Source of the DNA: Norana najaformis
Lineage: Eukaryota > Annelida > Clitellata > Crassiclitellata > Hormogastridae
DNA length: 64,000 nt
Assembly: GCA_964023275.1 (NCBI GenBank)
Contig: OZ029929.1
Coordinates: 1,987,501 to 2,051,500, forward strand
Direction: 5' to 3'
The translations under genes were made by a program, and so were the position numbers. Below are positions 33,412 to 61,809 of the stretch, piece by piece. Within the stretch, counting starts at the first letter, position 1. Each line of letters starts with the position of its first letter. Under the pieces are notes generated by a model. The model saw only the letters and a list, made by a program, of their open reading frames with translations. It ran no database searches and was not told where the DNA came from.

Positions 33412-33511
33412 GAGTAAGAAACTGACCTTGTGACCCCGGGGAATAAAGGCCATCATCATGGACCGAAGACGTTCACCATCACCCGAGGAAGGTAGTAATG
33501 ATCATCTAAAG
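33412..33511 (+). CDS. Exon a of a split gene: 5' UTR, start codon and 18 codons
   Basis: Preceded by the acceptor TTTTATTGTTTTGTTTGCAG and ended by the strong donor AAG|GTAAGA. The first 46 nt are untranslated. ATG at 33458 opens MDRRRSPSPEEGSNDHLK, ending on a complete codon (phase 0). An acceptor before the start codon means at least one upstream 5' UTR exon. The next in-phase exon is at 43863. The encoded N terminus is basic then Ser/Pro/Glu-rich, like many nuclear proteins, but I recognise no family. The exon is not part of any repeat I see. Intron 1 would be 10.35 kb. Confidence 0.75.
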
Positions 33512-33528
33512 GTAAGACGTGTACAGTT

Positions 33529-33588
33529 GCATCCATGGATACCGTTTCTATAGCAACCGCATCCATAGATACGGTTTCTATAGCAACC
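33529..33588 (-). promoter_or_regulatory. Tandem pair of RFX-type X-box motifs
   Basis: A 30-bp unit occurs twice in direct succession. On the minus strand each contains GTTGCTATAGAAAC (33544-33557 and 33574-33587), which fits the RFX X-box consensus RYYNYYATRRNRAC at all positions. It lies 18 bp into intron 1 after the start-codon exon. RFX binding is an inference from the motif. Confidence 0.5.
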
Positions 33589-33634
33589 GTACAGCTTTGG
33601 TCCAGAGCTTGGAATTCAGTTCGGATGTCGATGA

Positions 33635-33690
33635 GATTTTGAAAGTGACCATTGATTGATGCCTTGTGCTTTATGATAGCAGCGCTATAG
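33635..33690 (+). mobile_element. Retroposon 3' end with GCAGCGCTATAGAAG cap
   Basis: GAAAGTGACCATTGATTGATG then TTATGATAGCAGCGCTATAGA, the same pair of blocks as at 2690-2900 and 40045-40110. Confidence 0.5.
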
Positions 33691-33724
33691 AAGTTATTAG
33701 ATCAGCTTAGAGCCTTGATCGGCT

Positions 33725-34110
33725 CATGTTTCTATGACTTTATCGAGTGAGGTCTTTCACCATCTCTACCCGTTTGAATGGGAGTCACCCCAATTTAGAC
33801 CCCTATGCGGTTTGCTCGTGGCTCAAATATGATTAGGTTCTTGATTGGTTAGCCTTCCGACGACACACACACGCAGACCACATCTCAACATTACATGTAA
33901 ATGTATATTGGTTTCTGTAGCGACCGTATGGCCTCGACCCTGCTCATATTTTCAGTGAATTTATCGGGTGAGATCCTTCACCACCGCTGCCCGTTTGAAT
34001 GGGCGCCACGCCATTTAAGGTCCCCGTCTACGGACCGTGATAGCCCGAGATTAAAATCTCTGAATAATAGCCACGGTTGATATGCGAACGGGATTCTCTT
34101 TGTGTCTCAG
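33725..34110 (-). mobile_element. SINE family S1: one partial and one fuller copy
   Basis: 33725-33860 retains GAGTGAGGTCTTTCACC and GAATGGGAGTCACCCC. 33885-34110 retains the tail (TTACATGTAAATGTA), GAGATCCTTCACCACCGCTG, GAATGGGCGCCACGCC and the B-box region GGTTGATATGCGAACGG. Confidence 0.7.
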
Positions 34111-34570
34111 TTTATGGGGAAAGTGTGTGTTTAAGGGAGGGGAAAGACATGTGGCTAGAAGCAAAATGTGTGCGGAAAAGGTTACCTGTTTTGGAAGATA
34201 TCTAGACTAGTAGGTGGGGAAGACTTAGGGTAAGATTTAAAATGAATGGAAAATGTCGTCGTTGGGGGAAATGTGACCAGAGGAAGATGGGGAGTTTCTT
34301 CTTTTCCCCCAGACAGTTTACAAATCGTACCATGCAAGGGTTTTAAATAATCTTTTATAGTCTTGCAAGTGGCGGTGTAATTCTGTGCGTTTATCTCTTC
34401 AGTCGCCAGGCGCCTCCACAGTAAATCGACCGTGTGTTTGAGTATTTTCATAGTATTCGCTAGGTGTCGCCATCGTATTTTCGCGCATCTAGCAATCGTT
34501 CTTTCGCAAATTTATTTCTGCGTGTACGGACCAGGGTACCTCAAGGATGGATGGATAGAGGGAGAAAGGA
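34111..34570. other. Unassigned stretch
   Basis: Unique-looking. The minus frame 34182-34451 is open for 89 codons with no recognised domain. Confidence 0.3.
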
Positions 34571-34571
34571 T

Positions 34572-34885
34572 AACTGTGTGTGTATGTATGTATGTTTGTA
34601 TGCATTTATGTATGCATGTATGTATGTGTGTATGTATGTGTGTATTTATGTATGTATATATGTATGGATCTGTATGCATGCATATATGTATGTATGGGTA
34701 TTTATATGTGTATATATGTATGTATGTATGTATTTATGGGTATGTATGTATGGGTATGTATATGTGTATTTATGTATGTATTTATGGGTATGTATGGGTG
34801 TATGTTTGTACGTGTGTATGGATCTATGTGTATGTATGTTTGTATGTATGTGTGGGTATGTATATGTGTATGTATGCATTTATTT
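34572..34885. repeat. (TATG)n microsatellite
   Basis: TATG with GGTATG, TTTATG and CATG variants. Confidence 0.93.
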
Positions 34886-35298
34886 ACTCGACTGTTTTCT
34901 GTCAAATGTGCTGGTCCTTCTGTTTGGAATAATATATCGCACGATATTCGTTCTGAACCTAATTTGATATTGTTCAAGAAAGCAATGCGCGCGTGCCTTA
35001 ACGATCTAAATAAATAAACAATTTGTTTGTTTTTAGTTTTTCACTAGTTAAGGTTTATTCTTGTTTGGTTCATTCTTTTTTGTATTCCAACTCGTTCAGA
35101 TTCTGACTATGCTTTTTTCCAGTTAATCATTCGTCATCTAGCAATAGCTTTTGGTACGGGGGGGGGGGGGGGGGACCCTAATAAGCGGGACTTTGGTCCC
35201 TTCTGGGTTTTCCTTTTGTATCCTAAAACCATTCTGTATATTGTGCTTATCGGTGCTATATTTTTTTGGATCAATAAAAGATTGTTCAATGTTCAATA
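34886..35298 (+). mobile_element. LINE 3' end with C-terminal reverse-transcriptase tail
   Basis: In plus frame 2 the sequence encodes CAGPSVWNNISHDIRSEP and LILFKKAMRACLNDLNK before a TAA at about 35015. The W-N-x-(I/L)-x-x-(D/E)-IR pattern followed by FK-x-x-x-x-x-L is the usual end of Jockey/CR1-type LINE polyproteins. A 3' UTR of about 280 bp follows, with a run of about 16 G (35159-35174), AATAAAAG at about 35272 and a GTTCAATGTTCAAT tail. Body and catalytic domains are missing. The (TATG)n array abuts its 5' side. Confidence 0.75.
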
Positions 35299-35470
35299 TA
35301 TGTAAGTATTTATGTGTATATATGTATGTATGTATGTATATGTGTATTTATGTATGTATATATGTATGTATATATATGTACGTATGTTTGGGCATGTATG
35401 TATGTATGTGTGTATGTATGTATATATGTATGTATGTATGGGTATGTATATATGTATGTATGTACCTTCT
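35299..35470. repeat. (TATG)n microsatellite
   Basis: TATG/TATA units immediately after the LINE tail, then a TTGTATAGCGCC element end at about 35478. Confidence 0.9.
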
Positions 35471-36715
35471 TGAACATTTGTATAGCGCCTTTAGAGAACC
35501 TTCCAAAGGCGCTGACAAATGGGACCAGAGTCTGGACCAGATGGGGGGGGGGGAATTTTCCCTTTTCCCACCCTTGAATTCGTACCCTGGGCAAGGGTTC
35601 GACCGTAGAGGCCGTTCTTTGGACCCACCCTTTCCCCTTTGCCCCCTTTCCCACCCTAGTAATCGTACACTAGGCAGTGGAAATGAAAGAGCGATGGGAG
35701 AGATGTCGGTGGAGGGGTGCTAGTATCAGCAGCGCCACCTTTCGGAGGCGGCCCCACAAAGGCGGAGATTTTCCGGGCGAAATGTTTTTCCGGGTTTCTC
35801 GTTTCAACGATATTCCATTTCAGCGAACTTTTCCTTCATCCGCTGTAGCAATTTTATTTGTTGACCCTGTCATCATCACAGTTGTCGTCATCATCATCAT
35901 CGTCTTCGTCGTCTAAGATGCTTTTGTTTTTCAGCAGAGGCTTCGGGAAGTGCCTCTTCTCCATATTGCGGGGTCTTCGTTTCGCGGTTGTCTTGGCCGG
36001 TGTGAGGCCAAATTAGGACCAGACGAAAATAGTTCCGCAAAGTATCGCTATTGGTTCAGTGACCAGACCAGAACGCGGAAATTTGTGTCCATAAAGAATT
36101 CTGTCCGTAACATTTTCTGGCGCTTCGTTTGTCAAAATCCTGGGTCTACTAACGACTGCATAAAGAAAGACTGCTTGGGCTTCTATTTTGCTCTCCGTAA
36201 AATTTTGTTTTCTATCAGATGTTGCTGTCAAGACAAGGGGATGCTTTAAAATTCGTCTCGCTATGTTTTGCTAAAAGTTGGCTCAGCCGGAACCGTTTTC
36301 GCGCTGGAACCGATTTTACACCGCACCGGCGTTTCTTCTCCACGCGTGAAGTTTCCTGTTTGTTCACGAACCGGATACCTGGTTGAGGCGACGATAAGCC
36401 TTATGGGTCTTAGCGTTTGATGCCCTCCGACTTCACCCCTCCCCAAACACCCCTTTGTGCCCCTCTCCCTCCTCCCTGGCGGATCTTGGTGGGGGGGAAG
36501 ATAGACGGACCGGGAAATGCGGGGTCCCTCCTGGGTCGGATTGGTAGGGGGATTGCGTGATTGGAGGGTCGAATTTCGAGTTGGAAACGACAAGTTGAAG
36601 AGGTTGAGTTAGAAATATCAGCTTCAACTTAAGAAGTTTTTGTCAAGGTTTTTACAGAAATATTACGCGGTGTTAACAAGTTTTTTCTTTTATGTCGAAG
36701 CGAGAAATACTGTGA
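35471..36715. other. Unassigned 1.2 kb with GC- and G-rich parts
   Basis: Holds G9-10 at about 35544, a CATCATCATCGTC run at 35870-35910 and a GC-rich block at 36290-36560 (CCCTCCTCCCTGGCGG, GGTGGGGGGG). Several frames of 70-110 codons exist on both strands but none resembles a known domain. Confidence 0.3.
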
Positions 36716-36719
36716 GGTA

Positions 36720-36929
36720 AGATAAGCCGACGTAAACGGTCCTGTCAGTCGGAAGATGTCGTTTAAGAAAGAATGATGCAGTGCTCTGCTTTAGACACCT
36801 TTAAAACGCTTTCAGCCGACGCTATATATTCAGCAACTGCGTTACATCGTGTGAATAGTACCTATAAATAGCTTAGGTCGACGTAAAGCGGCGGTGTCAG
36901 TCGTAAGATGTCGCTAAAGAAAGAAAGAG
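36720..36929. repeat. R150 repeat units, interrupted by a LINE
   Basis: Two consecutive copies: CGGAAGATGTCGTTTAAG / CTTTAGACACCTTTAAAACG at 36750-36815, and CGTAAGATGTCGCTAAAG then CAATGCTCTGC at 36900-36929. The second copy breaks off where the RTE-like LINE begins, and R150 sequence resumes at about 37788. Confidence 0.7.
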
Positions 36930-37785
36930 GCAATGCTCTGCAGGGATTTGCTGGAGGCTTCAGAATTGGGGGTAAGACTATCAGCAATCTCAGGTATGCC
37001 GATGACATGGTCTTGCTGGCCACATCACCAGAGGAATTACAGGTGTTGGTGAGGCGTGTGGAGAACGCTGCAAATGAATATAACATGTTGATCAATGCGA
37101 AAAAGACGAAAGTAATGGCGAACGTAGACCAAGTTCTTGAGATCAGCGTGATTGGTGGAAGGCTAGAGCAGGTGGACTCTTTTGTGTACCTGGAGAGCAG
37201 AGTGAACAAGGAAGCGGAGTGCACGGGAGAGGTGAAGTAGAGGCTAGCAATGGGTATGGCAGTCATGGTCAAATTGACAAAGATGTGGAGGAACAAGTCA
37301 ATTAGCACCAGGACCAAACTGCGGTTGATGAAGACATTGGTGTGGCCAGTGGCAAAGTACGGATGCGAGGCATGGACGATGGAGAAAGAAGAAGAGAAGC
37401 GTATCCAGGCGTTTGAGAACGGATGTCTTAGAAAGTTGCTGCGGATTTCATGGACAAAAAAGATGACCACAGAACGAGTCTATCAACTGGCTGGAACAAA
37501 AAGCGAACTGTTGGGACATATTAAAGTGCGCAAGCTGCGTTACTTCGGTCATGTAATGAGACACCCTCAGGACACTATTGAAGCTGGCGTTATGTTGGGT
37601 CTCATCGAGGGAAATAGAAAACGTGGAAGACCAAGAATAAGTTGGATTGACAATAGCATGGCATGGACTGGCCTGTCGGGCACGATGATGGTGAACGCTA
37701 CGCGCGACACATGGCTTTGGGAGAGGATAGTCCATACATGTAGTCAACCGTCGGGAAGCGACGATGGCGTTGTGACATGACATGA
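36930..37785 (+). mobile_element. RTE-like LINE, 5'-truncated, one in-frame stop
   Basis: A single plus frame runs from about 36930 to TGA at 37778-37780, broken only by TAG at 37238-37240. It starts inside the reverse-transcriptase palm with the catalytic box LRYADDMVLLATS, continues with a thumb-like region (YNMLINAKKTKVM) and ends with the C-terminal tract LRYFGHVMRHP and GNRKRGRPRISWIDN, the signature of RTE/BovB-type LINEs. The endonuclease and the first RT motifs are absent. A short GACATGACATAA tail follows. The one stop and otherwise intact frame suggest fairly recent decay. It lies in intron 1 of the split gene, same strand, nested in an R150 repeat. Confidence 0.9.
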
Positions 37786-37995
37786 CATAACTGCGCCACT
37801 GCTTTGCTTGGGGGTAGTGCCAGTCCCAAGTCTGGATAAAAGAGGAGGGCGACGGCAACGGCCTTTGATGCGATAAGCTGTCGTTAAACTGAGGAACTTC
37901 TACTAATAGTTTGAGTAATAAGTCAGTAGAACTTCAGGTTGATGTTTACGGCCCTGACAGCCACAAGATGTCGTTAAAGAACGCAATGGTAAGTA
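37786..37995. repeat. R150 repeat, extended unit and partial unit
   Basis: GTGCCAGTCCCAAGTCTGG, GAGGAGGGCGACGGCAACGG and AAGCTGTCGTTAAACTGAGG match 51172-51285. A second module (CCTGACAGCCACAAGATGTC) follows at about 37950. Confidence 0.75.
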
Positions 37996-38129
37996 TTTCA
38001 TCCTTCTTAAGTCGAAGTTTTCAGCTGCGATTTGGCAACATAATAAGGGTTTCGAATATTTAGCCTGCGTTCTCGACATGGTTGAAGAACCTTGCTGTTT
38101 TTGAAAGGTTTACGAGTTTTTGACTGCGG

Positions 38130-38195
38130 TTTCACTTGAAGCGACCATCGCTTGATGCATTTTGCATTATGATAACGGCGCTATAGAAGTCATTA
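38130..38195 (+). mobile_element. Retroposon 3' end, GATAACGGCGCTATAGAAG cap
   Basis: CACTTGAAGCGACCATCG then ATTATGATAACGGCGCTATA, matching 40045-40110. Confidence 0.55.
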
Positions 38196-38500
38196 AACTG
38201 AATCGCCTCTCGCGTTTTTCTTCCTTCTATTCCTGCATATCTCCATCCGTTCCTTCTTCCCTCTCAGCCTCCCTCCTTCCGTATACTCGTCCATCATTCA
38301 TCCATCCATCCATCCATTGTCTTCGCGTGAGGTTAACGAGGGGTCATCCCCTCCCCGCCTTTTGTTCACGGTGTTTTGATCGCGTGGGAGGGAGTCCAGG
38401 CCAGGAGGGATCCTCAGGGCGGAAGGAGAGCGTGTTCCCGGTTTCCTGGCGAGTATATAGGGTGTTGAAACGAGTGATGACATGTGAATATCTTTACCTA
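38196..38500. other. Unassigned stretch
   Basis: Short TTCC/ATCC runs and unique-looking DNA. No exon is recognised. Confidence 0.3.
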
Positions 38501-38504
38501 TAAG

Positions 38505-38735
38505 GGTTAAGGTAAGGCCGACGTCAACGGCCCTGGCGGCCGCAAGATGTCGTTAACCAATGGATAAAGGCAATGCGCTTCTTAGACACCCTTACAACGC
38601 TTTCGACCGACTGTATATATATTTATAAATTCGGCACAAGCGTTAATCGTTACTCTTAATCTCTTTCTAGGTCAGGTGGGGTCGACGTCAGCGGCCTTGG
38701 CAGTCGCAAGATGGCGTTGAACGCGGAATTGTAAC
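38505..38735. repeat. R150 repeat units
   Basis: GTCAACGGCCCTGGCGGCCG-type block and CTTAGACACCCTTACAACGC at 38515-38615, then GTCAGCGGCCTTGGCAGTCG with CAAGATGGCGTTGAACG at 38680-38725. Confidence 0.7.
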
Positions 38736-39050
38736 TACTGTTAATAATGCTGGTGCTGACATGTGAAAATCAGGGAGTGCGGAGTGAGGGGATTGTCGGT
38801 GGATTTAAGGGACTGTGGGAGGGGTTGGCATGGTAGCAGTTTCCTGGAGCTTCCTGCTGGCCCCTGGGGTCGCCTACTGGCCCTGAGACGTTGGGGTCGC
38901 GAAGGGGGTCGGGATGGGTCCATGGGAATCGACGTTTAACGTTCTGGTGGTCGAGTCGTGTTGTAGGTAATCGTTAGGAATTTATAGTGCGCCGATTGCG
39001 AAGTCAGCTCTGAAGCGTGGGCAATCGGTTGAATGTTGTCCTGTGCAACT
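38736..39050. other. Unassigned stretch
   Basis: Unique-looking DNA, locally CCTGGGGTCG-rich. No gene is recognised. Confidence 0.3.
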
Positions 39051-39052
39051 GG

Positions 39053-39270
39053 TGTCATCATCGTCGTTGTCGTCATCATCATCCTCGTCGTCTTCATCAG
39101 CATCGTCATTGTCGTCATCATCGTCAGCATCATCGTCTTTATCATATCATGGTCGTAGTCGTCGTCATCGTCATTATCGCCGAAACGATCATCTTCCTCT
39201 CCTTAACCACCATCATCATCATCTTCATCTTCTCTTCTTCATCGTCGTCATTATCATCGTCACTCTCGAG
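39053..39270. repeat. (CATCGT)n-type trinucleotide array
   Basis: CATCAT/CGTCGT units with decay. Open frames are compositional. Confidence 0.88.
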
Positions 39271-40044
39271 TCTTGTCCTTGAGATGTTTCTACACCTCGT
39301 TTACAAAGCCAGCAAAATTCGGCGCAGTTTCCTGCATGTCATTTATTTAGCGCCAGCCATCGGCTGAGGCGCACAATGAACGTCATTTCGAAGCCATATG
39401 GTTCCTAATGGATCTCGGTTCCGCTTGGCTGAAGCGCCGCAGGGAGTGGCAGACCCAGCAGAGGGTGACAATCCAGTGCCAGGTGGGGCATTGTCTGATC
39501 TTGCCCAATGGGGCAGCTGCGTTGGGTAGCCACTCTCACCTGCCGTCGGTTACAACCCCACGGGGAGGGGGTTGTCTGGTCAGCGAGGCTCTGACCGAAT
39601 GAGACGAAGAGTCGAATTTGGGTTTTAGTGACATCTGGGGCCGGTTCGGTTGATCTGCGTTTTTTGCGTTTTACGGAGGGATCTTTACGGATTACGCGAT
39701 TTACTGGATTACGCTGTAACTCGAGTTGTAAGTGTAAATGTAGAAATCCGAAATTTTTCGGCGCTACATAAATCTACGACAGGGAGACCAGCGTTTTCAC
39801 AGGCGCTATATCGAATCGAGTCCGCGAGAAAGACGTTCTTTAAGAGCTTTGGGATGTAAGTGATTGGTTTTGGTGTTGATGGGAATTTGTGTAACGCTTT
39901 ATGGATCGAACCATATGGCTATCAGCTATGCAACGTTCGATCGAACTAAATGACTTCTATAGCGCCTTTGTCCTAATGCACCTATTTTCTATGACCTTTC
40001 GGAATTCGACCTGGCTTCCCAAAACGAACTATGATTTTGGATTG
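39271..40044. other. Unassigned stretch with element ends
   Basis: Caps TTTATTTAGCGCCAGCC (about 39350), GGCGCTACATAAATC (about 39760) and TTCTATAGCGCCTTTG (about 39957) show at least three decayed element ends. No coding exon is recognised. Confidence 0.35.
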
Positions 40045-40165
40045 TGATTTTGACTTGACGCGACCATCGATTAATGCGTTGGGCATTAGGATAACGGCGC
40101 TATAGAAGTCTTTAGATTAGCACCGTCCATCAGTCGATGGTCGCTTCAAGTGAGACCGTGGTTGA
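40045..40165. mobile_element. Two retroposon ends in inverted orientation
   Basis: TTGACGCGACCATCGATT and GATAACGGCGCTATAGAAG on the plus strand (40052-40105), then CATCAGTCGATGGTCGCTTCA, the inverse of the first block, at 40128-40148. Confidence 0.55.
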
Positions 40166-40202
40166 AAATCATGATCCGTTGGAGAGCTTGTCGATATCGG
40201 CT

Positions 40203-40252
40203 AAGCCACGTGACATCAGCTGTCACGTGACGTCGGCTAAGTCACGTGACAC
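40203..40252. promoter_or_regulatory. Cluster of three CACGTGAC E-boxes
   Basis: CCACGTGACATC (40206), GTCACGTGACGTC (40221) and GTCACGTGACACT (40240) occur within about 50 bp. Two are perfect GTCACGTGAC palindromes, the form preferred by USF/MITF/TFE-type bHLH-zip factors. It sits in intron 1 of the split gene. Function is not shown by sequence alone. Confidence 0.45.
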
Positions 40253-40327
40253 TGCACTTAAGCACAAAAAACTGATGAAACATGTAGCATGTTAAATGTA
40301 TTGATGTTTTGAAATTTACTTGAGGAA

Positions 40328-40420
40328 TTAATGATGGTGATGATGATGATGATGATGGTGATGATAATGATGATGGTGATGATGATGGTGGTGATGATGG
40401 TGATGATGATGATGATGATG
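40328..40420. repeat. (GAT)n run
   Basis: GATGATGGT units directly at the 3' tail of the following SINE. Confidence 0.9.
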
Positions 40421-40600
40421 AGTTCTCTGCCCGAAGGCAGGTCCACTGAGCTTATACCACTCGGGGATGAGATGAGTGAGGTGGTTTCCCATTTGCCTTC
40501 CTCACAGACAATTGTGGTGAGCAACTTGCTTGAGGCAGATTCGAACCCGCGACCCTCCGGTTACGGACACCGACCATACCACTACACCACCGCGTCCCAC
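40418..40600 (-). mobile_element. tRNA-derived SINE, family S4
   Basis: Minus-strand head GACGCGGTGGTGTAGTGG with B-box GGGTTCGAATCTGCC about 35 bp on, then a body of about 110 bp ending in a (CAT)n tail. It closely resembles the 5' half of a tRNA gene, but the acceptor stem does not close. Confidence 0.8.
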
Positions 40601-40784
40601 TTCAGTAAGGAATTAGGTGAATCTTTTGGTCTCACCTGTGGATGCCTATTATTAATTTTGTCTGTTTAAGTGACTGTAATAGCAGTTGTTTCTCCCTTTT
40701 TTGTGGTGTTGAACAAACGTTTACTCTGATTTAGAGAAGAGGTTAGGCTACGGTGGGTAGGGAGTCGGAACAACTGGCATTATT

Positions 40785-41190
40785 TCTAATCTAATCTAAT
40801 CTAATCTAATTCCAATTAGATTAGATACCATGTAATATGTTTCTATTTCATATGAAATAGAAATAGGTACGAAATAAAAAATATGACGTGATATCAGCTT
40901 AAGTTTAGCTGTGAATGATGTTTAAAAAAGCTGACAGAACGAACCGAATTGGGCAGCGAATACAGTGGCTTCAGACGAAATTCTTTATATGTAGGTGTAT
41001 AAATACACGTATGAAATAGAAAAACATGACATGGTATCTGATCTAATCGGATTTAGATTAGATTAGATTAGATTAGATTAGAAATAGTACCGGTTGTAGT
41101 TGATAGATAGAAGCTATAAATGCACAGTAGTGTACCAGACCTTGCCATATTAGTAAGTAAGTAAGCATGTAAGTAAGTAAGTAAGTGATG
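40785..41190. repeat. (TCTAA)n / (TTAGA)n arrays in inverse orientation, and (AAGT)n
   Basis: CTAATCTAATCTAATCTAAT (40789-40810) is followed after a few bases by ATTAGATTAGA (40815-40827). A second TTAGA run lies at 41049-41083 and an AAGT run at 41153-41187. The first pair can form a hairpin. Confidence 0.75.
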
Positions 41191-41287
41191 CATTTGACAA
41201 CTAAAGTTATACCTCATCATACCTCACGTTAACTACCTTCTTTACCTAACGCAGTTCACTTTAACTTATCTTACCACGTCATACGTT

Positions 41288-41600
41288 GCATTGCCTTACC
41301 TTGTCGTTCCTTACCTTACCTTGTTCCTTACCTTACCTTGTCTTTCCTTACCTTACCTTGTTCCTTACCTTACCTTGTCGTTCCTTACCTTACCTTGTCG
41401 TTCCTTACTTTACCTTGTCGTTACTTACCTTACCTTTGTCGTTCCTTACCTTACCTTGTTCCTTACCTTACCTTGTCGTTCCTTACCTTACCTTGTCGTT
41501 CCTTACCTTACCTTGTCGTTCCTTACCTTTGTCGATCCTTACCTTTGTCGTTCCTTACCTTGCCTTATCATACTTGACCTTACTTTACATCATCTCACCT
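41288..41600. repeat. 20-bp minisatellite (CGTTCCTTACCTTACCTTGT)
   Basis: About fourteen units of 15-20 bp, some missing the CGT or one CTTAC step. Confidence 0.9.
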
Positions 41601-41995
41601 TCACCTCACCTCACCTCACCTTACTTTTGATTGATATCCCTCCAAGGGTCTCTTTGCCTTGATTTACTCTTTCCTGTAGCCGCCGTTGAATTACCCGCCA
41701 GCACCCCTCGATCCTAAGGCGCCCCATCATGACTACCCATAATTCACTTTGATTGCTTGCTGCCCCCTGTTTTCCAACCGACGCAGTCTAATCTCTCTTT
41801 AGAGGGCCTTCCCCTCACGCTTTTCTCCCCCTCCTCCGCACAGGGGCCATTACCCTGCGCTACCCATTCATGGTCTTGTCGCCCCGTCGTGTTGTACATT
41901 AGCGTCGGTTCGTCTCCGTGACCTTATGACCTTTAAACTGTCGCCCCCTATCGGTCGGGCGTCATTCAGATGTCAAGTCTACGACGTCACACGCC
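41601..41995. other. Unassigned stretch
   Basis: C-rich unique-looking DNA. No gene is recognised. Confidence 0.3.
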
Positions 41996-41999
41996 CCAT

Positions 42000-42112: not shown

Positions 42113-42146
<34 letters not shown>

Positions 42147-43862: not shown

Positions 43863-43933
43863 GTCAAGAGATTTCGTTCAACTGAAGAAGAAGATAATTT
43901 AAAGTTTGACCAGACAACAGAAGATCGGGAAAG
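43863..43933 (+). CDS. Exon b of the split gene (71 nt)
   Basis: Acceptor TCTATTATAATTTAG at 43862, donor GAAAG|GTGAGA at 43933/43934. Entered in phase 0 it reads VKRFRSTEEEDNLKFDQTT then EDRE plus two bases (AG). The other two frames are not needed: the phase left by exon a gives an open frame directly. The start VKRFR could contribute to a nuclear-localisation signal. Separated by a 489-bp intron from exon c. No domain is recognised. Confidence 0.75.
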
Positions 43934-44422: not shown

Positions 44423-44502
44423 CTCATCCCATCCTCTACCGGTGGCTCTTCCATCTTCTACCCTTTCCACGTCTGCATCGCATGAAGATTATTCCAGTCA
44501 TG
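44423..44502 (+). CDS. Exon c of the split gene (80 nt)
   Basis: Acceptor CCGTTTTCCTGTACAG at 44422, donor CATG|GTAAGC. With the AG carried from exon b it opens with AGC and reads SSSHPLPVALPSSTLSTSAS then HEDYSSH, leaving one base (G). A Ser/Pro/Thr-rich, probably disordered segment. The strong splice sites and the matching phase are the evidence. No family is recognised. Confidence 0.77.
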
Positions 44503-47244: not shown

Positions 47245-47245
47245 C

Positions 47246-50710: not shown

Positions 50711-51165
50711 TTATTAAATGTTTAATTGAGTGGTTTTACTTGTCTGACACTCATTTCCATAGTTTATTAACACCGTCCTAAGACATCGAATTAATAGGCG
50801 CAAAACGCGACCTCCGACGGTCACACTAGTAATTACACTTGGTACACGTTACTGGGCCTCAGAGTATTTGGGCGTTGCTTACCTTGGGTGTTGTGAAGGG
50901 AATAATTGATTGTTTTGCCAACGATCCCTATAGGTCCCGGGTTCTGCTCCCCCAGATGGCCTTTGACCCATATATCCTGCCAACCGTGTAACAGCTACGG
51001 AATTCGATTGGAAAATTAATTAGTGAGAGCGGAATAGCGACTAATTAGTAATTAGTGACTCGTTTCTGCCGGTCTGTGACGTTGGTATGGTATGGCCGAC
51101 CAAGAACACCATAATTTCCGTTTCGATTCGGACGATTTGTTAAAAAATGTAACGAGTGCCGGTCC
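50711..51165. other. Unassigned stretch
   Basis: Unique-looking, AT-rich. Nothing is recognised. Confidence 0.3.
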
Positions 51166-51167
51166 TA

Positions 51168-51290
51168 ACTCCGCCACTGCCTTATTTGGGGGTAGTGCCA
51201 GTCCCAAGCCTGGATAAAGGAGGAGGGCGACGGCAACGGCCTTTGATGCCATAAGCTGTCGTTAAACTGAGGAACTAACTCGTGCCGGTC
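51168..51290 (+). repeat. R150 extended unit
   Basis: CTCCGCCACTGCCTTATTTG, GGGTAGTGCCAGTCCCAAGC, GGATAAAGGAGGAGGGCGAC and AAGCTGTCGTTAAACTGAGG. It is the reverse of 42818-42925 and 61981-62085 with very few differences. Confidence 0.85.
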
Positions 51291-53040: not shown

Positions 53041-53044
53041 AATT

Positions 53045-53325
53045 CATTATTTAACGCCATTTGTGGCTGCCAGGGCCGTTGACATCGATCCTAGTTATAG
53101 GCAGGGTGGAACACGAATTATTATACGCAGGTGTGGAATATATGACGTCGGTTGCTAGCGTTTTAAAGGTGTCTACAGAGAACACAACTATTCTTTGTTT
53201 AGCGACATCTTTCGACATTATACATACATACACACTTGCATACACGCATACATATATACGTGCATAAGTATGTAGTTGCATACTCTGATACATGCATACA
53301 TACATGCGTAAGTATACGTAGTACG
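53045..53325 (-). repeat. R150 repeat unit followed by (ATAC)n
   Basis: GTGGCTGCCAGGGCCGTTGAC (53063), GCGTTTTAAAGGTGTCTAC (53158) and GCGACATCTTTCG, then ATACATAC units at 53220-53325. Confidence 0.75.
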
Positions 53326-53534
53326 AATATGCGTTTAAATTTTACGGGGTCCTTGGAAATCGATAATCCGAATACAAACTTGGTCGCAACGGCTGAGCTA
53401 TTTCAGTTCTGAATCTATATGTTATATCCATGTGTTTATGCCCTATATATCTACCATAGACGACTCTTAACTGTGCCCTACCGCCAGACATTTTTCAGCT
53501 ATTTATTGTGGCCAAAATAAGGCTGAACGCGAGA

Positions 53535-53700
53535 AAGTCAATTGACGCGCGTCACGGTCATTGACGCAAGAAAAGGCGCCTTTTGGCGCGGAAACTGACA
53601 GCGAACTGTCAAGTATTGATTGACGCTTGACGTAGCGTGACGCCGCCGCGACGAGATGTCAGTGTCATGACGTCTGATTGTCAGGATCGGAGTCTGAAAC
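53535..53700. promoter_or_regulatory. TGACG-rich cluster with an E2F-like site
   Basis: Within about 165 bp there are at least six TGACGC/TGACGT motifs (half-sites for CREB/ATF-type factors), AAGGCGCCTTTTGGCGCGG (palindromic GGCGCC next to TTTTGGCGC, an E2F-consensus match), and several CTGTCA/TGACAG inverted repeats. Composition is sharply different from the flanks. A regulatory role is an inference. Confidence 0.35.
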
Positions 53701-53999
53701 GACAGGGGAAGTGACAGTTACGATGCGATTTTGTGAACGAGGAACTCCCTTAACCCTCCCCCTCGCTGGTTCAGACTACGTCCCTCTATTGACTCCCCCA
53801 CCTTTTCCCCTTCCATTACTTTAGTCTATCCCCAACTGAATACACATTTTCCCATTATTTTTCTGCTGTCTTCCCAAAATTGTCTCGCGTTCTTTGGCCC
53901 ACTTGATCGAGATTTAAAATCTTCTTTATTATTAGCGAATCCCAGGGGTAGAAAGGAAAAGAGGAAAACAGGCTGGCTGGCCATTTTGTAAGATCAAGA
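53701..53999. other. Unassigned short stretch
   Basis: Pyrimidine-rich DNA. Nothing is recognised. Confidence 0.3.
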
Positions 54000-54272
54000 A
54001 GAAGAGCCAAGCCAAGCCCGAGAGGTGTCCATGTGTATGAAGTGTTAGCGACTTCGTTTTTCTTCGCCTCGGCATACGACAACGGATGGCCAACCGTCTC
54101 CCTCGCCGCCTGATCTTCCACCGTCGGTATACTAGTTTTAGCTGAGCTCGCTCGAGACGCTACTGCAGCAGAATGTTCGATATAATCTATCTGGCGCTGC
54201 GAGGATTTGAACATCCACCTCTCAGCTGACAGCCTAGCATGCTAACCACTGCACTATCGCGCACCCTAGATT
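54000..54272 (-). mobile_element. tRNA-derived SINE, family S6, with well-kept tRNA-like head
   Basis: On the minus strand from 54272: GGGTGCGCGATAGTGCAGTGG, then GCATGCTAGGCTGTCAGC (anticodon-arm position), B-box ATGTTCAAATCCTCG and GCAGCGCC, so all parts of a tRNA are traceable. The acceptor stem pairs at only about five of seven positions. The body continues with the S6 sequence to 54000. Confidence 0.78.
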
Positions 54273-54609
54273 TATTAAGATAAGATTAGCGTATCATCCG
54301 TGTGAGTCATTGATGAAGCCCGTGTTGATGTCATACGCGTCAGATGACATGGAATACGACAGTAGTCAATGTAGATTAGATTAGACTTTTAAAAACTGGC
54401 CACGAAGATCCCCTGTTGAAATAAGGGGCGTAAAAAATGGCACCTCGTCTGATGCCTAGAAGTTCAGCGTCGGGTGTCTTCTTCTGCTGCTGGTTAGATA
54501 GGATTTCATCGGTTGGGGCGATTAGCATCCAGGGCAAAACTACGCAGCAAGTCGTCGCCGTCATCTGTATCTGCCACTAGGAAATTCTGATAAGGAAAAC
54601 CGCAAAGAA

Positions 54610-54700
54610 AGATTCCCTTCTCGAGGAATTTCGTGAACTTTAGAGAGGAGTGGGATGAAGTTTCTGGAAGAATTGCGCGAACGTTGAGCAGCTTTTTAAG
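54610..54700. repeat. Left piece of a GTGAACTTTGGGGAG repeat
   Basis: TTTCGTGAACTTTAGAGAGG and GGGATGAAGTTTCTGGAAG match units of 55064-55330. An R150 unit and a CTTA-tailed element lie between the two pieces. Confidence 0.55.
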
Positions 54701-54765
54701 TGCCTCACAAAAATGATAAAGTTTATGTATGTGTCACTATAAGCGTGTCACTGCGGATGTGTCGG

Positions 54766-54872
54766 CTCCGCCACTGCCGTACTGGGGTGGTGCCAGTCCC
54801 AAGCCGGGATAAAGGAGGAGGGCGACGCTAATCATCTTCGTTATGAGACGGCGTCGTTAAGCAGTAGCTACC
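54766..54872 (+). repeat. R150 extended unit, diverged
   Basis: CTCCGCCACTGCCGTACTGG, GGTGGTGCCAGTCCCAAGCC and GGATAAAGGAGGAGGGCGACG. Confidence 0.75.
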
Positions 54873-54904
54873 AACCTCAGATGTGTCGCCACTGTGTCAC
54901 GTGT

Positions 54905-55062
54905 GTTATGTTTGCCTGTCTGTCTGTCTGTCTGTCTGTGCCTCTTCCTTTGTTTGCTTTGTTATGTATTGTTAGTGTGTTTGTGCACGCCTATGGTTCT
55001 TCGCTTAGCCGACGAACTTATGGCGTGTTAACAAATGCTTACATACTTGCTTACTTACTTAA
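54905..55062 (+). mobile_element. CTTA-tailed retroposon 3' end, copy 3
   Basis: (TCTG)n, then CACGCCTATGGTTCTTCGC, GGCGTGTTAACAAATGC and TTAC units. Same layout as the copies at 770 and 44640. Confidence 0.7.
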
Positions 55063-55063
55063 G

Positions 55064-55340
55064 AATGTCGTGAACTTTGGGGAGCAGTGGGGTGAACTTT
55101 CGGGAAGAACTGAGAGAAAACACGGGGAAAGATGTCGTGAACGTTGGGGAGCAGTGGGGTGAACTTGGAGGGTTCATCGAACGCTGGGGGAGACGTTTGT
55201 GAACTTTAGCGAGGGTGATCTCTGCATGGGGAAGAACGGAGCGAACTTGTGGGAAAAATTTCGTTAACTCTAGCGAACAGTTGGCTGAATTCATCAGCTT
55301 GAGGAAAAGTTGAGCGATGTTTCGGGGCAAATTGGAGCGA
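55064..55340. repeat. Minisatellite of GTGAACTTTGGGGAGCAGTG units
   Basis: Degenerate units of 30-70 bp (TGTCGTGAACTTTGGGGAGC, TGTCGTGAACGTTGGGGAGC, etc.), purine-biased. Confidence 0.7.
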
Positions 55341-55789
55341 ATGTTTGCGAAGAACTTAGAGAATCGTATAATCGTAAACTTGAAATTTCTAAAGCTCTGC
55401 TTCAAGCTTAGCGCAGGGCACCAGCTTATTCACGAGCGCTGCGTCAAGTCAGTGGGGTTTTCCAGCAAAGAAGTCCTGTCGAGAACCAAGTCCGGTTGCC
55501 AGAAGACCAGAGACAGACAGAAAGAGACAGACAGACAGACAGAAAGAGAGAGAAGGGGGACAGCTGTTAGGGTGAGTTGTGCTTAAGCTGAGAGAAATGG
55601 GAAGAGAAATGAGAGAACATTCGGTTAGAGTTGAGCAACTTATGTAGAATTGAGCAACCATTTGGGGAGACTTAGTGAAGCTTGGGGAAGACTTGGGGGG
55701 GGGCAGAGTTGGGTGGACTGTGTGAACAATTAAGTGAGCTTTTGAGAGAATGGAACTAAGTTTTGTAAAAAAAATTGAGAACTTTATAC

Positions 55790-56250
55790 AGGGAAACGAC
55801 TTACCATCTGAGTTACAATCTCAATAACCTAATGAGTTACCATCTGAATTATCTAGTCAGTTACCATCTGAATAACTTAATGAGTTACCATCTGAATAAC
55901 CTAATGAGTTTCCATCTGAATAACCTAATGAGTTACCATCTGAATAACTTAATGAGTTACCATCTGAATAACTTAATGAGTTACCTACCATCTGCATAAT
56001 CTGCTGAGTGACCCTAAGAACGATTTACGTTATGAATTACCTATTGAGTTACCTAGTGAATTACCTATTGAGTTACCTAGTGAATTACCTATTGAGTTAC
56101 CTAGTGAATTACCTATTGAGCTACCTAGTGAATGACCTATTGAGCTACCTAGTGAATGACCTATTGAGTTACCTAGTGAATTACCAATTGAGTTACCTAG
56201 TGAATTACCAATTGAGCTGCCTTACGAACGACCTATTGAGTTGCCTTGCC
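55790..56250. repeat. Two adjoining 24-bp minisatellites
   Basis: 55795-55990: units CCTAATGAGTTACCATCTG plus AATAA. 56035-56245: units CTATTGAGTTACCTAGTG plus AATTAC. Both have a 24-bp period made of two related 12-mers and share GAGTTACC, so the second probably derives from the first. Confidence 0.9.
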
Positions 56251-56459
56251 GTTGACCTGGCTAGTGACCTTCTGAGTGACCAGGCGCAGTAGCCATAACA
56301 CTGGACATATCGCGTGACCTTTTTCCTGCGTCGTAGGCAACCGAACCTAAAAACCGGGAATCCTGGAAGGTTAATTCCACGAAGAAGCCATCGAGGCCTC
56401 GCGTGCAAAGCCGACCCTTAGCCGGTCCTGTCAATCACACACCGAAGCCCCGCCTCCCG

Positions 56460-56649
56460 GCAACATCTTGACCAATTGCGTTGAGCCGAGCAGACGGCGC
56501 GCGCAGCCATTAATAAAGTCGGTAACGAGCAGACGATGTTCGGTGCGAGCGAGAAGTCAGCCAGCGGACGGTAGAGGGACTTTGGTTTTGCTCTCTTCCG
56601 TTTCTTCCTTCCTTCAGTCAGTTCGTGGATTTCTTAACGGGATTGGTAA
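56460..56649 (+). promoter_or_regulatory. Possible promoter and non-coding first exon
   Basis: A CpG-rich patch (GCAGACGGCGCGCGCAGCC) is followed by ATTAATAAAG, a TATA-like string, and then about 140 bp ending in GGGATTG|GTAAGG, a good donor. The only ATG (56536) opens a 12-codon frame. It lies in intron 3 of the split gene on the same strand and could be an alternative promoter, but no transcript evidence is available. Confidence 0.3.
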
Positions 56650-56719
56650 GGATTACTCCCTACGCTGAGGAAGGATTCGAAGGCAGGGCCCTTGGACCGG
56701 CAGTGCTAGGAGGAAATCG

Positions 56720-57015
56720 TTTTTGGGAAGGTAAATTTCTCTTTAAGGCGTTACCTGGAGGTAATTTGAAGGTAAATTTCCATTTATGATGCTACTGGGA
56801 GGTAGATTTCCATTTGGAGCGTTATGTGATGGTAGACTGAAGGTAATTTTCCGCTTAGGACGTTATCTGAAGGTAATTTGAATGTAAATTTCCGTTTACG
56901 GCGGTACCTGAAGACAACGTGAAGGTAAATTTCCATTTGGAGGGTTGTATGAAGGCTAATAAAGGTTCCGCTTAGGCTAATTGAAGGCAACTTTGTCTGA
57001 AGGTAAATTGAAGGT
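56720..57015. repeat. Degenerate GGTAAATTTCCATTT repeat
   Basis: About six units of roughly 50-60 bp, each with GAAGGTAAATTTCCRTTTRG and GCGTTA-CTG. Confidence 0.7.
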
Positions 57016-57129
57016 AAATTACTTGCCTCTGGGGTGCAGCGCCGCCATTCGGAAAAGCGTTGACCGGCGTAGCACGGGGCTGCGGTTCTAATCTCGGTGT
57101 GAAATACAGTTGCCATGGAGATTTCCAGA

Positions 57130-57345
57130 GCAAAAATCGTGGATAGGGCGATGGTGGTGGTGGTGAAGATGTGGAATTGATTGTGGTGGTTGTGGTGGTG
57201 GAATTGATTCTGACTGGTGCGCGTGATGGTGTTAATGGTGGTGATAACGGTGATAATCGTCGTTGTCATCATTATCATTGACCCGTTGACAAGAAAACTG
57301 CAACAAGAGCTCGGCTGTGTTCTAATCTAATCTAACCTAATGACT
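57130..57345. repeat. GGT/GAT-rich stretch
   Basis: GGTGGTGGTG at 57152-57165 and GGTGGTGATAACGGTGAT to about 57275. A TTCTATAGCGCCG element end follows at 57346. Confidence 0.6.
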
Positions 57346-57364
57346 TCTATAGCGCCGTTTTCAC

Positions 57365-57500
57365 GAGTACACGTAAATGTACATGTTTTTCTATAGCGAC
57401 CGTATGGCCTCGACCCTGCTCGTTTTTCAGTTAATTAATCGGGTGAGATCCTTCGCCAGCGCTGGCCGTTTGAATGAGCGCCACACCATTTCAGATCCGT
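57365..57500 (-). mobile_element. SINE family S1, 3' part
   Basis: CGTAAATGTACATGTTTTTC tail, GAGATCCTTCGCCAGCGCTG and GAATGAGCGCCACACC. Confidence 0.65.
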
Positions 57501-57835
57501 ATTGCTACTTCCAGGGCCGGATTTAGACGTGGTGAGGCGGACTGAAGCCCTAAGTTCCTGTAGGAACCTGTGGAGGCTCTATTTGGCAATTGTTGGCAGA
57601 GAAGAAGGCTGTGTAACAATTGAACTTAGCAGATATGCCACCAAGATGTTAATTGTTGTTAATTAGGTTATATTAATTACAGGAAATCTGTACTCAAATA
57701 TAAATTATAAAATTATAAAACTGTAACAAATGAAAAAAATCTGAATTTTTAAGCGGTCCATTCAGACTGTGAGGTCCTAAGTTATAGCTTGTTTAGCTTA
57801 TGCCTAAATCTGGCCCTGGCTACCTCCCATCCGAC
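57501..57835. other. Unassigned AT-rich stretch
   Basis: Nothing is recognised. Confidence 0.3.
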
Positions 57836-57837
57836 TT

Positions 57838-58188
57838 TGATCGTCTTAATAGTTTTAACGACATCTTATGGCATCAGAGGCCGTTGACGTCGCCCTCCTC
57901 CTTTTTCCAGGCTTCGGACTGGCACTACGCGACTAAAGACAGTGGTAGTTTCCAATGTTTAACGACATCTTATGGCATCAGAGGCCGTTGACCTCGATTC
58001 GAGGAAATTCTAGTTTTCACTCGAGTTTGAAGGATACACGCACGTATATTCCAGTAGTCTGGTCGACGGTTATATATAGCGTCGGCGGAAGCGTTTTAAA
58101 GGTGTCTAATCTCAACTGCTATTTTATTATTAGATTCCACTTTTTAGCGACATCTTGTGTCTTCCAGGGACGTTGACGTCGACCCTAA
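57838..58188 (-). repeat. R150 repeat cluster
   Basis: Extended unit at 57855-57950, then ACGACATCTTATGGCATCAG (57961), GCGTTTTAAAGGTGTCTAA (58092) and GCGACATCTTGTGTCTTCC (58146). Confidence 0.75.
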
Positions 58189-58189
58189 A

Positions 58190-58425
58190 TGTAGACGTAC
58201 ATGTTTTTCTATAGCGACCGTATAGCCTTCACCCTCGGCTCATTTTTCAGTGAATTAATCGGGTGAGATCATTCACCATCGCTGCTCGTTTGAATGGGCG
58301 CCCCGCCATTTAAGGCCGTGTACAGACCGTGCTAGCCCGAGATTGAAATCCCTTAAATATGGCCACTGTCGGTATGCGAACCGGCATCCTCTCGCTCAGA
58401 GGCGCCTTGATGTACACACACACAG
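58190..58425 (-). mobile_element. SINE family S1, nearly full length
   Basis: TACATGTTTTTCTATAGCGAC side at the tail, GAATGGGCGCCCCGCC, then B-box region GGTATGCGAACCGGC at 58371. The A-box side is replaced by CACACACAC. Confidence 0.7.
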
Positions 58426-58549
58426 AGCAGATATCAATCGATGGTCTTCACTTGAAACCGCAGCCAAAACTTGTGATTCGTTGGGGGAAGCTTGGTCGAA
58501 ATTCGACCTGTTTGAGAAAGGAAAAATTGCATGCGAGGTGCTGTGCAGT

Positions 58550-59140
58550 CGTAATCGTAAGCTCGAGATTTCCACAGCGCCCAGCAAAAGCTAAGTGGCG
58601 GGAGCCAGTTTATTCACAGGCGCTCAGTCAAAACAAAATCGTTAGGCAAGAAGGGTTCGGTTCCAGGTGAAGATCCCAGAGTTAGGCAGGCAGACAGTCG
58701 GACGGCTACGGTGGATGGTGTTTGGAATTGAACCGGAAAGTGAGATAAGGGGAAGAGGAGGAATCAGGGTAGAACTTGTGGAAGAGGAGTGTTTTCAGTT
58801 TTGAGTGAAAGACAGGGTAGAACTTGTGGAAGAGGAGTGTTTTCAGTTTTGAGTGAAAGACCTGCGCAGAAATTGCAAGAGGTGAAGTGTTGGTGAATTT
58901 ATATGATGGGTATACGTGATTCAGGGTCGAGTTTCCCCCAAGGACTCTCGTCGCTCCTTCGTCGAGACCATTACCCGCCTGCAGATGGCGTACATGGGAC
59001 CGTAGATTTGATGCTCGACCGTACAACTGGAAGCCCATCCCTCCTTCTGCTGTCACGTACGCCAGGCTGATGTGCGTAGAAAATACCGTCCAAAATATTC
59101 CAAATCTGCGGCGAAAACGAAGATTAATTCCTACACGCAA
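58550..59140 (-). mobile_element. LINE 3' end (family LT1), copy 3, with an internal duplication
   Basis: The minus strand encodes SPLAISAQVFHSKLKTLLF followed by a second copy of VFHSKLKTLLFHKFYP, because about 48 bp (58760-58807 and 58808-58855) is tandemly duplicated in frame. The 3' UTR ends with the GGCGCTGTGGAAATC cap and an ACGATTACG tail at about 58550-58570. Upstream the frame stays open to 59140 but is not clearly RT. Confidence 0.78.
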
Positions 59141-59174
59141 ATTAGCAACAGCAGACTTCCAACCATGTCAGAAA

Positions 59175-59372
59175 GTGTGTGTGTGCGTGCGGTTGTATGT
59201 GTCTGTGTATATGTGTGCATGTGTGCGTGCGTGTGGTTGTGTGCGTGCGTGTGTTGTTGTGTGTCTGTGTGTATGTGTGTGCATGTGTGCGTGCGTGTGG
59301 TTGTGTGTGCGTGCGTGTGTGGTTGTGTGTGGGTATGTATCTGTGTATGTATGTGTGTGTATGTGTGTGTGA
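59175..59372. repeat. (GT)n-derived VNTR
   Basis: GTGTGTGCGTGCGTGTGGTT units, four or five copies of a block of roughly 40 bp. Confidence 0.88.
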
Positions 59373-59640
59373 CTGCTAGCGCAGAAAACTCAAGGCCGTT
59401 GTCATCGGGGGCAACTGTGTTTGCCGTAGCTGTGTTCCACGTGCACTCCGAGTACGCCCCGAGCATACGCCGAATACAGTTAAGCAACACGTGGCGAATC
59501 TGTTCAAGAGGCCGCTCGGAGTAAGCTCGAAGGGCGCCCGGAAAGGACACAGAACACACCCTCTGACTTTGCACCCCTTCAGTGAGGATATTGGGGAGGC
59601 TGGGCTGGGCATCTCTAAGGAGGAACGGTGATTTATCCGA
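59373..59640. other. Unassigned short stretch
   Basis: Moderately GC-rich, with a minus frame open into the adjoining polypurine tract. No domain is recognised. Confidence 0.3.
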
Positions 59641-59644
59641 CGGT

Positions 59645-60245
59645 GGGGAGGAGGAGAGGAGACAAGAGGAGGAGGAAGAGCAGCGAGAGAACTTTGAGGA
59701 AGAGAGGGGATAGGAGGAGGAGAAATAGGAGGAGAAGGTTTTGAAGGAGAAGAAGAGGTAGGAGGAAGAAGAGGAGGAGGAAGAGGAAGAGGAGAAGAAT
59801 AAAGGACTAGGAGGAAGAGAAAGAATGGGAGGAGGAGGAGGAGGAGAAGGAATAGGAGGAAGAGAAAGAATGGGAGGAGGAGGAGGAGGAGAAGGAATAG
59901 GAGGAAGAGAAAGAATGGGAGGAAGAGGTGGAGGAAGAATTGGAGGAAGAGAATGGGAGGAGAAAGAATGAAAGGAGGGAGAGCAGGAGAAAGAATAGGA
60001 GGAGAAAGAATGGGAGGAGAAATAGGGGAGGAGATGGAAAAGGGAGAGGAGGTGGAGGAGGAAGAATAGGCGGAAAAGAAAAGAGGAAAAGGAATAGGAG
60101 ATGGTAGGAGGAGTAGGAGGAAAAGGAGGAGAGCGACAGAAGAAACAGGAGGAATATGAAGAGAGGAGGAGAAGGAGAGGAGAATGCATGTGAGGAGGAG
60201 GAGTAGAAGGAGCTGGAGGAGGAGGAGGAGCAGGAGGAGGAGATG
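59645..60245. repeat. 600-bp polypurine tract
   Basis: Almost only A and G on the plus strand, with a 60-bp block (AGGAGGAAGAGAAAGAATGG) repeated three times at 59808-59935. The minus frame of 352 codons across it is an artefact of the missing stop codons. Confidence 0.95.
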
Positions 60246-60555
60246 TTGGGTCAGAAGGTCAGGACGTTGCTGTCTATCGTTGTGACGTTAATACCGCATT
60301 AAACGACGAACCGTTATTAATAGTTCATAGCGGAGTTCGGCGGGAACGGTGGGAAGGTGGGGCCGAATGGAGGGGAGGGCGGGCGAGGTGGGGTGGGGTG
60401 GGGAGGTGGAATTCCTCGGCCGTGCGCCGGACGGGATGGTGGTGGTGGTGATGATGATTCATGAGGCGGCCGCGAGGTGCCAAGGATGACGGTCGAGAGA
60501 TGAGCATGGCACCTCTCGCAGGGATGCGATTCTCAGCCCTCTCCGCATGGCCGTC
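60246..60555. other. Unassigned GC-rich stretch
   Basis: GGTGGGGTGGGG and GGCCGTGCGCCGG-type sequence at 60340-60440. No gene is recognised. Confidence 0.3.
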
Positions 60556-60732
60556 TCTCTCTCTCGCTCTGTCTATCTGTCTGTCTATCTGTCTATTTAT
60601 CTATCTAAACTGCCTGCCTGCCTGCCTGCCTATCGGTCTGTTTGTCAATCATTCAGTCAGTCAATCTGTCAGTTAGTCAGCTTGTCTGTCTGTCAATCTG
60701 TCTCTCTGTCTGTCCGTGTGTCTGTCTGTGTC
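60556..60732. repeat. (TCTG)n microsatellite
   Basis: TCTG, TCTA, TGCC and CAGT units. Confidence 0.88.
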
Positions 60733-60876
60733 CGGAAAATGCAAACAACATTTTATTTATTTCTCGTTGTTTTGTTGGCAACGAACACTGGATTTAAATG
60801 TTCGGAGATTCTACTGAATAGCATTGTATGTGTTTATTTAATTTTTGTTTATTTTTTGGTTATGTTGATTTCTTAA

Positions 60877-61015
60877 GAAGCCGCTGAGCGATGGCTTAGA
60901 GCGATTGGCTTGTAGAGCGAGGAGTAGGGGTTCGAGCCTTCTCCCCTGAGACGGTTACTGTGTAGGGACCTAGAGCAAGTCCTTTATTTGCATAGTGGCG
61001 CTTAATACTTGCAGA
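60877..61015 (+). mobile_element. tRNA-derived SINE, family S3, copy 5
   Basis: Head GCCGCTGAGCGATGGC, B-box GGGGTTCGAGCCTTC, body GACGGTTACTGTGTAGGGACC and tail running into (GAT)n. Confidence 0.82.
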
Positions 61016-61152
61016 AATGATGATGATGATGATGACGAGGAGGAGGAGGAGGAGGAGATGACGACGACGATATGATGACGTCGATGATGATGATGATGAT
61101 GATGATAGTGGTGGTGGTGATGATGCTGCTGCTGCTGATGATGATGACGATG

Positions 61153-61184
<32 letters not shown>

Positions 61185-61262
61185 GACGATGACTATGGTG
61201 TTGATGCTGCTGCTGATGATGATGATAATAATGATGATGACGATGATGATGATGATGATGAA
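61016..61262. repeat. (GAT)n / (GAG)n trinucleotide array
   Basis: GATGATGAC, GAGGAG and GCTGCTGCT units, probably the expanded tail of the SINE before it. Confidence 0.93.
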
Positions 61263-61474
61263 TTTCAAAATGCACCGTGCGTATGAAGCAACCACGCAAG
61301 CCTTTGTTTCCAAACCCCGTTTGATTCCGATTTCCAGAATTCCGTTTTCCAGGCTTCCCGAGAAAGTGGAGGATTCTGATTTCTGTTCGAATTCAGCTTG
61401 TCCTCCAAGGAGGGGCATCACCAGGAAGCTGAAGAAGGACTTGCGAACGGAGTCTCGAGTATCTTCAGCTGGCT

Positions 61475-61635
61475 TTTGCATATCTCCTCCTTTCTCCCCC
61501 CCCCCTCAGTGTTCCGCAGGCGCCTGAAGACTGTACTGTTCATCGGTGATTTTACTTTTTCGGGTCGGAAGCACCTCTGTTGAGTTTATCCTCTAAGAGG
61601 CGCTATATAAATCTCAAACTACAATTACAATATGA
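61475..61635 (+). mobile_element. LINE 3' end with FRRRLKTVLF motif
   Basis: Plus frame 1 reads SVFRRRLKTVLFIGDFTFSG before a stop at about 61581. The 3' end is GAGGCGCTATATAAATCTC at 61598-61616 followed by ACAATTACAAT. The SLxSFRRRLKTxLF pattern plus this cap is the usual end of CR1/L2-type LINEs. Confidence 0.7.
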
Positions 61636-61730
61636 TTTAATTATGTATGACACAATGACAGTAATGATAATGTTAATGATAATGATTGGTAATAAAACCG
61701 TCCGTGTTTAATGCGTGCTTTTCTCTGTAG

Positions 61731-61809
61731 GTGGCGTTGGTGAGGAGCAGAAGGAGAAACTAACTTCCGTTGTTGAAGAACCGAAGTCGCAATCGTCGTC
61801 CCCAGACAG
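61731..61809 (+). CDS. Exon d of the split gene (79 nt)
   Basis: Acceptor GCGTGCTTTTCTCTGTAG at 61730, donor GACAG|GTGAAG. Combined with the single G left by exon c it reads GGVGEEQKEKLTSVVEEPKS then QSSSPD and leaves AG (phase 2). Acidic, Ser-rich and probably disordered. Intron 3 before it is 17.2 kb and may hide further exons whose length is a multiple of three. The next exon must begin in phase 2. The acceptor-like TTAAACTGATTGCAG at 62415 would give 17 more residues and then a stop in that phase, which I do not consider established. Confidence 0.75.

Follow-up and report, generated by a model that had tools for sequence, protein, structure and literature searches.

Four short exons in a 64,000-nucleotide (nt) window of the Norana najaformis genome most likely encode the start of an eyes absent (Eya) protein. 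The window (contig OZ029929.1, positions 1,987,501 to 2,051,500) lies on a contig labelled C17 in the animal genome that we searched, which comprises 608,420,607 bases (608 Mb) in 17 contigs. We read a further 200 kilobases (kb) of C17 past the window end; extended coordinates continue the window numbering beyond 64000, coordinate x being C17 position 1987500 + x. As modelled, the gene runs on the + strand from window position 33412 to at least extended position 100574 (C17:2020912-2088074), a span of at least 67 kb. An earlier note on the window had proposed a hidden spliced gene of four exons over 28 kb. A phase-matched next exon bears out the hidden gene, and its size has to be revised: the exons likely number at least 15 and extend over 67 kb.

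The four window exons, all on the + strand, join into a single open frame. Exon 1 (33412..33511, 100 nt) holds a 5′ untranslated part and 18 codons from an ATG at 33458 and leaves phase 0; sequence, phases, its rank among start exons and a genome search place it. Exon 2 (43863..43933, 71 nt) enters in phase 0, reads VKRFRSTEEED... and leaves 2 bases, and exon 3 (44423..44502, 80 nt), which reads SSHPLPVALPSSTLSTSASHEDYSSH, leaves 1 base. Both are placed by sequence and phases, and other pairs could serve as the middle exons. Exon 4 (61731..61809, 79 nt) leaves 2 bases and is placed by sequence and by its fit in phase to exon 5, which follows it in the model beyond the window end, at extended 66039-66523 (C17:2053539-2054023). 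Exons 1-4 are each flanked by an AG acceptor and a GT donor. Joined from the ATG, they give 284 nt, or 94 codons and 2 bases, with an in-frame stop 5′ of the ATG within exon 1 and no stop after it. The start context, atcATGg, is favourable, with A at -3 and G at +4. Since exon 1 carries an acceptor, a non-coding exon should lie upstream of it.

These exons are single-copy by genome search and polar in what they encode. Exon 1 has a single genome match, itself, and a search with the 94-residue peptide at E <= 0.001 recovers only its own exons, in 4 matches. By composition count, 78% of residues 1-94 are S, T, P, E, D, K, R, Q, N or G. On re-reading the sequence, the coordinates, splice sites, phase chain (0, 2, 1, leaving 2) and 94-codon peptide of the earlier note all hold. 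As to its statement that no exon overlaps a repeat, exons 1-4 are clear of the tandem arrays among the 150 of 182 rows listed, and one array stops at 33398, within the distal end of the exon 1 acceptor tract. The first intron contains a reverse transcriptase fragment (36887-37240, + strand; RVT_1, E 6.6e-10), and the intron between exons 3 and 4 contains a type-P1 twister ribozyme (51162-51231, + strand) that scores 72 bits, over the Rfam gathering score.

Downstream on the same strand, the C17 locus encodes a complete Eya domain and is an ordinary new member of the Eya family. The domain starts about 16 kb past the window end, and the earlier reading of a 28-kb gene of unknown family is not borne out. 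Among the candidate exons of the further 200 kb were clear pieces of an Eya domain. Probing with an Eya domain sequence found eight collinear pieces from 79906 to 100571, and seven other rows stood at chance level (E >= 0.6). With splice sites, the pieces define exon 9 (extended 79853-80004), exon 10 (89674-89763, weak acceptor, 3.8), exon 11 (90270-90328), exon 12 (91815-91975, weak acceptor, 2.8), exon 13 (93283-93397), exon 14 (96162-96283), exon 15 (99285-99385) and exon 16 (100494-100574), all on the + strand. Some of the splice sites, the two acceptors just named among them, are weak. Every junction among these eight exons is in phase, through to the stop in exon 16.

Profile and structure searches agree on the identity of this domain. 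Exons 8-16 translate into 328 amino acids (the C part), which match TIGR01658 at E 2.3e-113 and 378.5 bits (cut-off 195.3), residues 58-327 of 328 covering profile positions 2-273 of 274. In the PDB the C part matches EYA2 (E 3.9e-142) and EYA3 (E 6.5e-137), and in Pfam it matches Hydrolase (E 4.1e-10). At residue 64 it carries DLDET, which we take to be the HAD-type catalytic DxD motif, with predicted activity.

Between the window exons and the Eya domain lie the exons that would connect them. A search for a downstream exon entering in the phase left by exon 4, as the earlier note had proposed, ended 4.2 kb past exon 4 on the same strand, outside the window. This exon 5 (extended 66039-66523, 485 nt, + strand) is open in one frame only, with 11, 0 and 2 stops per frame. 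Exon 6 (69629-69849, + strand, with alternative acceptors at 69664 and 69740) fits exon 5 by splice sites and phase, and exon 8 (75086-75193, + strand) fits exon 9 in the same way. A missing exon 7, entering in phase 0 and leaving 1 base, would join exons 6 and 8.

Exon 5 is tied to Eya independently of exons 1-4, as judged from sequence, because a homologous piece lies upstream of another Eya domain. A genome search with TIGR01658 gave 34 matches at E <= 10, each about one exon long and none alone above the family cut-off, and these mark Eya-domain loci in at least five places: C17, C12, C7 and two on C3. An outlying match on C4 is weak (E 0.199) and carries a stop. In the pieces read, the C12 locus is nearest to C17, with 91% over a 35-residue stretch of exon 15, and the other loci have diverged further. 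Used as a genome query, the translated N-terminal part of the C17 model (the N part) gave 68 matches at E <= 10, six of them its own exons. The best of the others falls on C12 (E 1.0e-4, 43% identity over query residues 167-264), on the strand that carries the C12 Eya domain and 17 kb upstream of that domain. The alignment of the C17 and C12 pieces, which have TMQAYQ.LGCQ...SFG.Q in common, scores 131, and none of 500 shuffles exceeds 66. From either of two acceptors at the beginning of the C12 piece the entry phase would be 1, matching C17; two higher-scoring acceptors near its 3′ end would drop most of the aligned part. Model residues 136-198, within exon 5, form a 12-residue tandem repeat with six KSY units, at 136, 148, 160, 172, 184 and 196. 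Apart from one on C13, the remaining N-part matches have E >= 0.01, and most of them hit the repeat stretch of the query. Hits of the N part to Pfam and NCBIfam entries such as SdrD and DUF6501 fall far short of their cut-offs and were set aside as low-complexity matches.

The splice sites of exons 1-4 rank high in the window. All splice scores come from approximate matrices, and ranks refer to the 4069 acceptors and 4318 donors of the window's + strand. The acceptor and donor of exon 1 rank 3 and 4, those of exon 2 rank 161 and 5, those of exon 3 rank 43 and 23, and those of exon 4 rank 39 and 69. As whole exons, exon 3 ranks 10, exon 4 ranks 14 and exon 2 ranks 17 among 509 open candidates, and exon 1 has the top score of 559 start-exon candidates. 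We used Markov shuffles, a set of 60 and a further 500, as the chance control. In the 60, no four-exon chain scored above 72.7, vs 74.1 for exons 1-4. Start exons matching exon 1 in strength turned up in 4 of the 500.

Several results weigh against exons 1-4 as the front of the Eya gene, beginning with the chain itself. In 9 of the 500 further shuffles a four-exon chain reached 74.1 or more, and the window holds a higher chain, at 77.7 (reached once in those shuffles), that keeps exons 1 and 4 and replaces the middle. With exons 1 and 4 fixed, the frame is kept by 2,351 two-exon bridges, the pair of exons 2 and 3 included, and by 35 one-exon bridges. Phase matching by itself is therefore weak evidence. 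Codon usage is also uninformative: under a coding model trained on three pieces of the genome only, one of them the C part of this same gene, the 94 codons reach -0.230 bits per codon where the null gives -0.442 (standard deviation 0.237), 18% of 3000 random open sets do at least as well, and the other two frames of the piece give -0.232 and -0.045. We dropped codon usage as support for exons 1-4 because it was not significant. Since shuffles match the chain, a better chain exists and many bridges keep the frame, the chain taken by itself is suggestive and no proof. That it is a chance assembly of splice-like sites is nonetheless hard to credit, given how exceptional exon 1 is in the shuffles and that the chain continues in phase into an exon of the Eya gene 4.2 kb downstream.

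The same bridges bear on whether exons 2 and 3 are the right middle. Exons 1 and 4 could be true 5′ exons of Eya with exons 2 and 3 wrong or optional, bridged for example by 36658-36716 and 56618-56730; we regard this as unlikely. In its favour are the 77.7 of the alternative chain, the number of bridges that keep the frame, and the alternative exon at 56618, which is likewise single-copy by genome search. The pair of exons 2 and 3 stands 17th by splice score among the 2,351 bridges, with hydropathy in the lowest 2.0%. The middle of the top alternative is hydrophobic (mean hydropathy 0.14 vs -1.17 for exons 2-3), unlike a disordered Eya N-terminus, an argument that is post hoc. A VKK/VKR motif at the start of exon 2, which may be common to Eya N-termini, was not used as support; a literature text search for strings of this kind turned up unrelated work only.

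Further points against the model come from its N-terminal half. Taken alone, the 94 residues match 0 Pfam families at E <= 1 and 0 PDB sequences at E <= 10. In local alignment with the N-termini of EYA3, EYA4 and fly Eya, 41%, 100% and 78% of 1000 shuffles scored as high. The modelled exon 5 donor is weak, at 1.5 (alternative donors at 66367 or 66408 also suit an acceptor of exon 6), and the start of exon 6 is ambiguous. Exon 7 was not found in the readable sequence between exons 6 and 8; a candidate at 71879-71942 and a variant starting at 71882, the only ones in the readable part of that interval, were unconvincing. The N-part match next after C12, on C13 (E 4.9e-4), has two stops and lies at no Eya locus. 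Nothing in the 10 kb read upstream of C12 exon 5 is convincing as a homologue of exon 4. At the two C3 Eya loci, a splice scan (best 45 candidates per locus) and short motifs over 40 kb yielded nothing that by eye resembled exons 1-5; one KTEGGL-like piece was seen there.

A family-less start would be usual for Eya. PMC11328874 describes Eya N-terminal domains as disordered, highly divergent and hard to align, and the 94 residues most likely look family-less for that reason. The missing similarity to Eya N-termini is thus expected, yet gives no support to membership of the gene, with which it remains compatible. It could also be read as a sign that exons 1-4, though real, form a separate gene upstream of Eya, as could the indirect nature of the evidence for the 61809/66039 junction. 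We consider such a separate gene very improbable. Exon 5 lies on the same strand 4.2 kb away, enters in the matching phase and keeps the joined frame open; in a ranking confined to the 102 start exons able to splice straight into exon 5, the top score is 18.1, vs 23.3 for exon 1. From position, strand, phase and splice strength, we infer that exons 1-4 splice into exon 5 as the first coding exons of the + strand Eya gene.

Other features lie in and beyond the window. On the - strand, an open frame of 420 amino acids (7750-9012) carries two Hsp20/alpha-crystallin stretches (Pfam HSP20, E 2.7e-21). A second - strand frame of 341 amino acids (18417-19442) ends in three C2H2 zinc fingers and, with a CDCPNC box, looks like a transcription factor of the Sp family. 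At the window end, a weak zf-RVT match (63681-63998, - strand, E 2.2e-4) falls under the cut-off. Farther along C17, an open candidate exon on the + strand (extended 237743-238312) looks, on visual inspection only, like part of a seven-helix receptor.

The C17 protein most likely acts like other Eya proteins, as a transcriptional co-activator and tyrosine phosphatase, a function taken from family membership. Exons 1-4 would encode the start of a disordered Ser/Pro/Glu-rich N-terminal domain and exons 5-8 its remainder, a flexible region expected to carry activation and phosphatase-recruiting segments. Exons 9-16 would supply the C-terminal Eya domain, predicted to be a tyrosine phosphatase of HAD type; in known Eya proteins this domain also serves Six/sine oculis transcription factors. 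PMC12246617 assigns known Eya proteins a C-terminal tyrosine phosphatase, Six co-activation and an N-terminal domain that recruits PP2A-B55, and PMC3419738 describes an N-terminal six-tyrosine threonine-phosphatase motif. Eya motif patterns gave nothing convincing in the N-terminal region of a model that is one exon short.

The C17 gene shares its main architecture with human EYA1-EYA4 and Drosophila eya: a complete C-terminal Eya domain with DLDET, a polar region N-terminal to that domain and a division into many short exons. Unlike them, its first 94 residues match none of the N-termini compared (EYA3, EYA4 and fly), and its exon 5 has the 12-residue tandem repeat, which the aligned C12 piece lacks. 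The PP2A-B55-binding segment of Eya3 sits in the disordered N-terminal domain, as exons 1-4 would, according to PMC12246617; the K-x-Y-x-H spacing of K75, Y77 and H79 given there is absent from both translated parts of the C17 model, one exon short. The same paper counts four Eya genes in mammals, vs at least five Eya loci in this genome. A literature text search for eyes absent or eya in earthworm returned neuroanatomy work only, and we build no novelty claim on it.

It is conceivable, though distinctly doubtful, that Eya expanded to five loci and that the C17 copy gained a new N-terminus, made of a divergent Ser/Glu-rich start and the 12-residue repeat. If so, each K-S-Y core of the repeat might be a weak site for docking or phosphorylation, and the series of them could tune the recruitment of phosphatases in a way that differs from other Eya proteins. 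Where the diagnostic domain falls outside the window, a chain of short exons that is statistically weak by itself can turn out to be the beginning of a known gene. The outcome here is an Eya gene model whose junctions can be tested, in a genome where Eya-domain loci number at least five.

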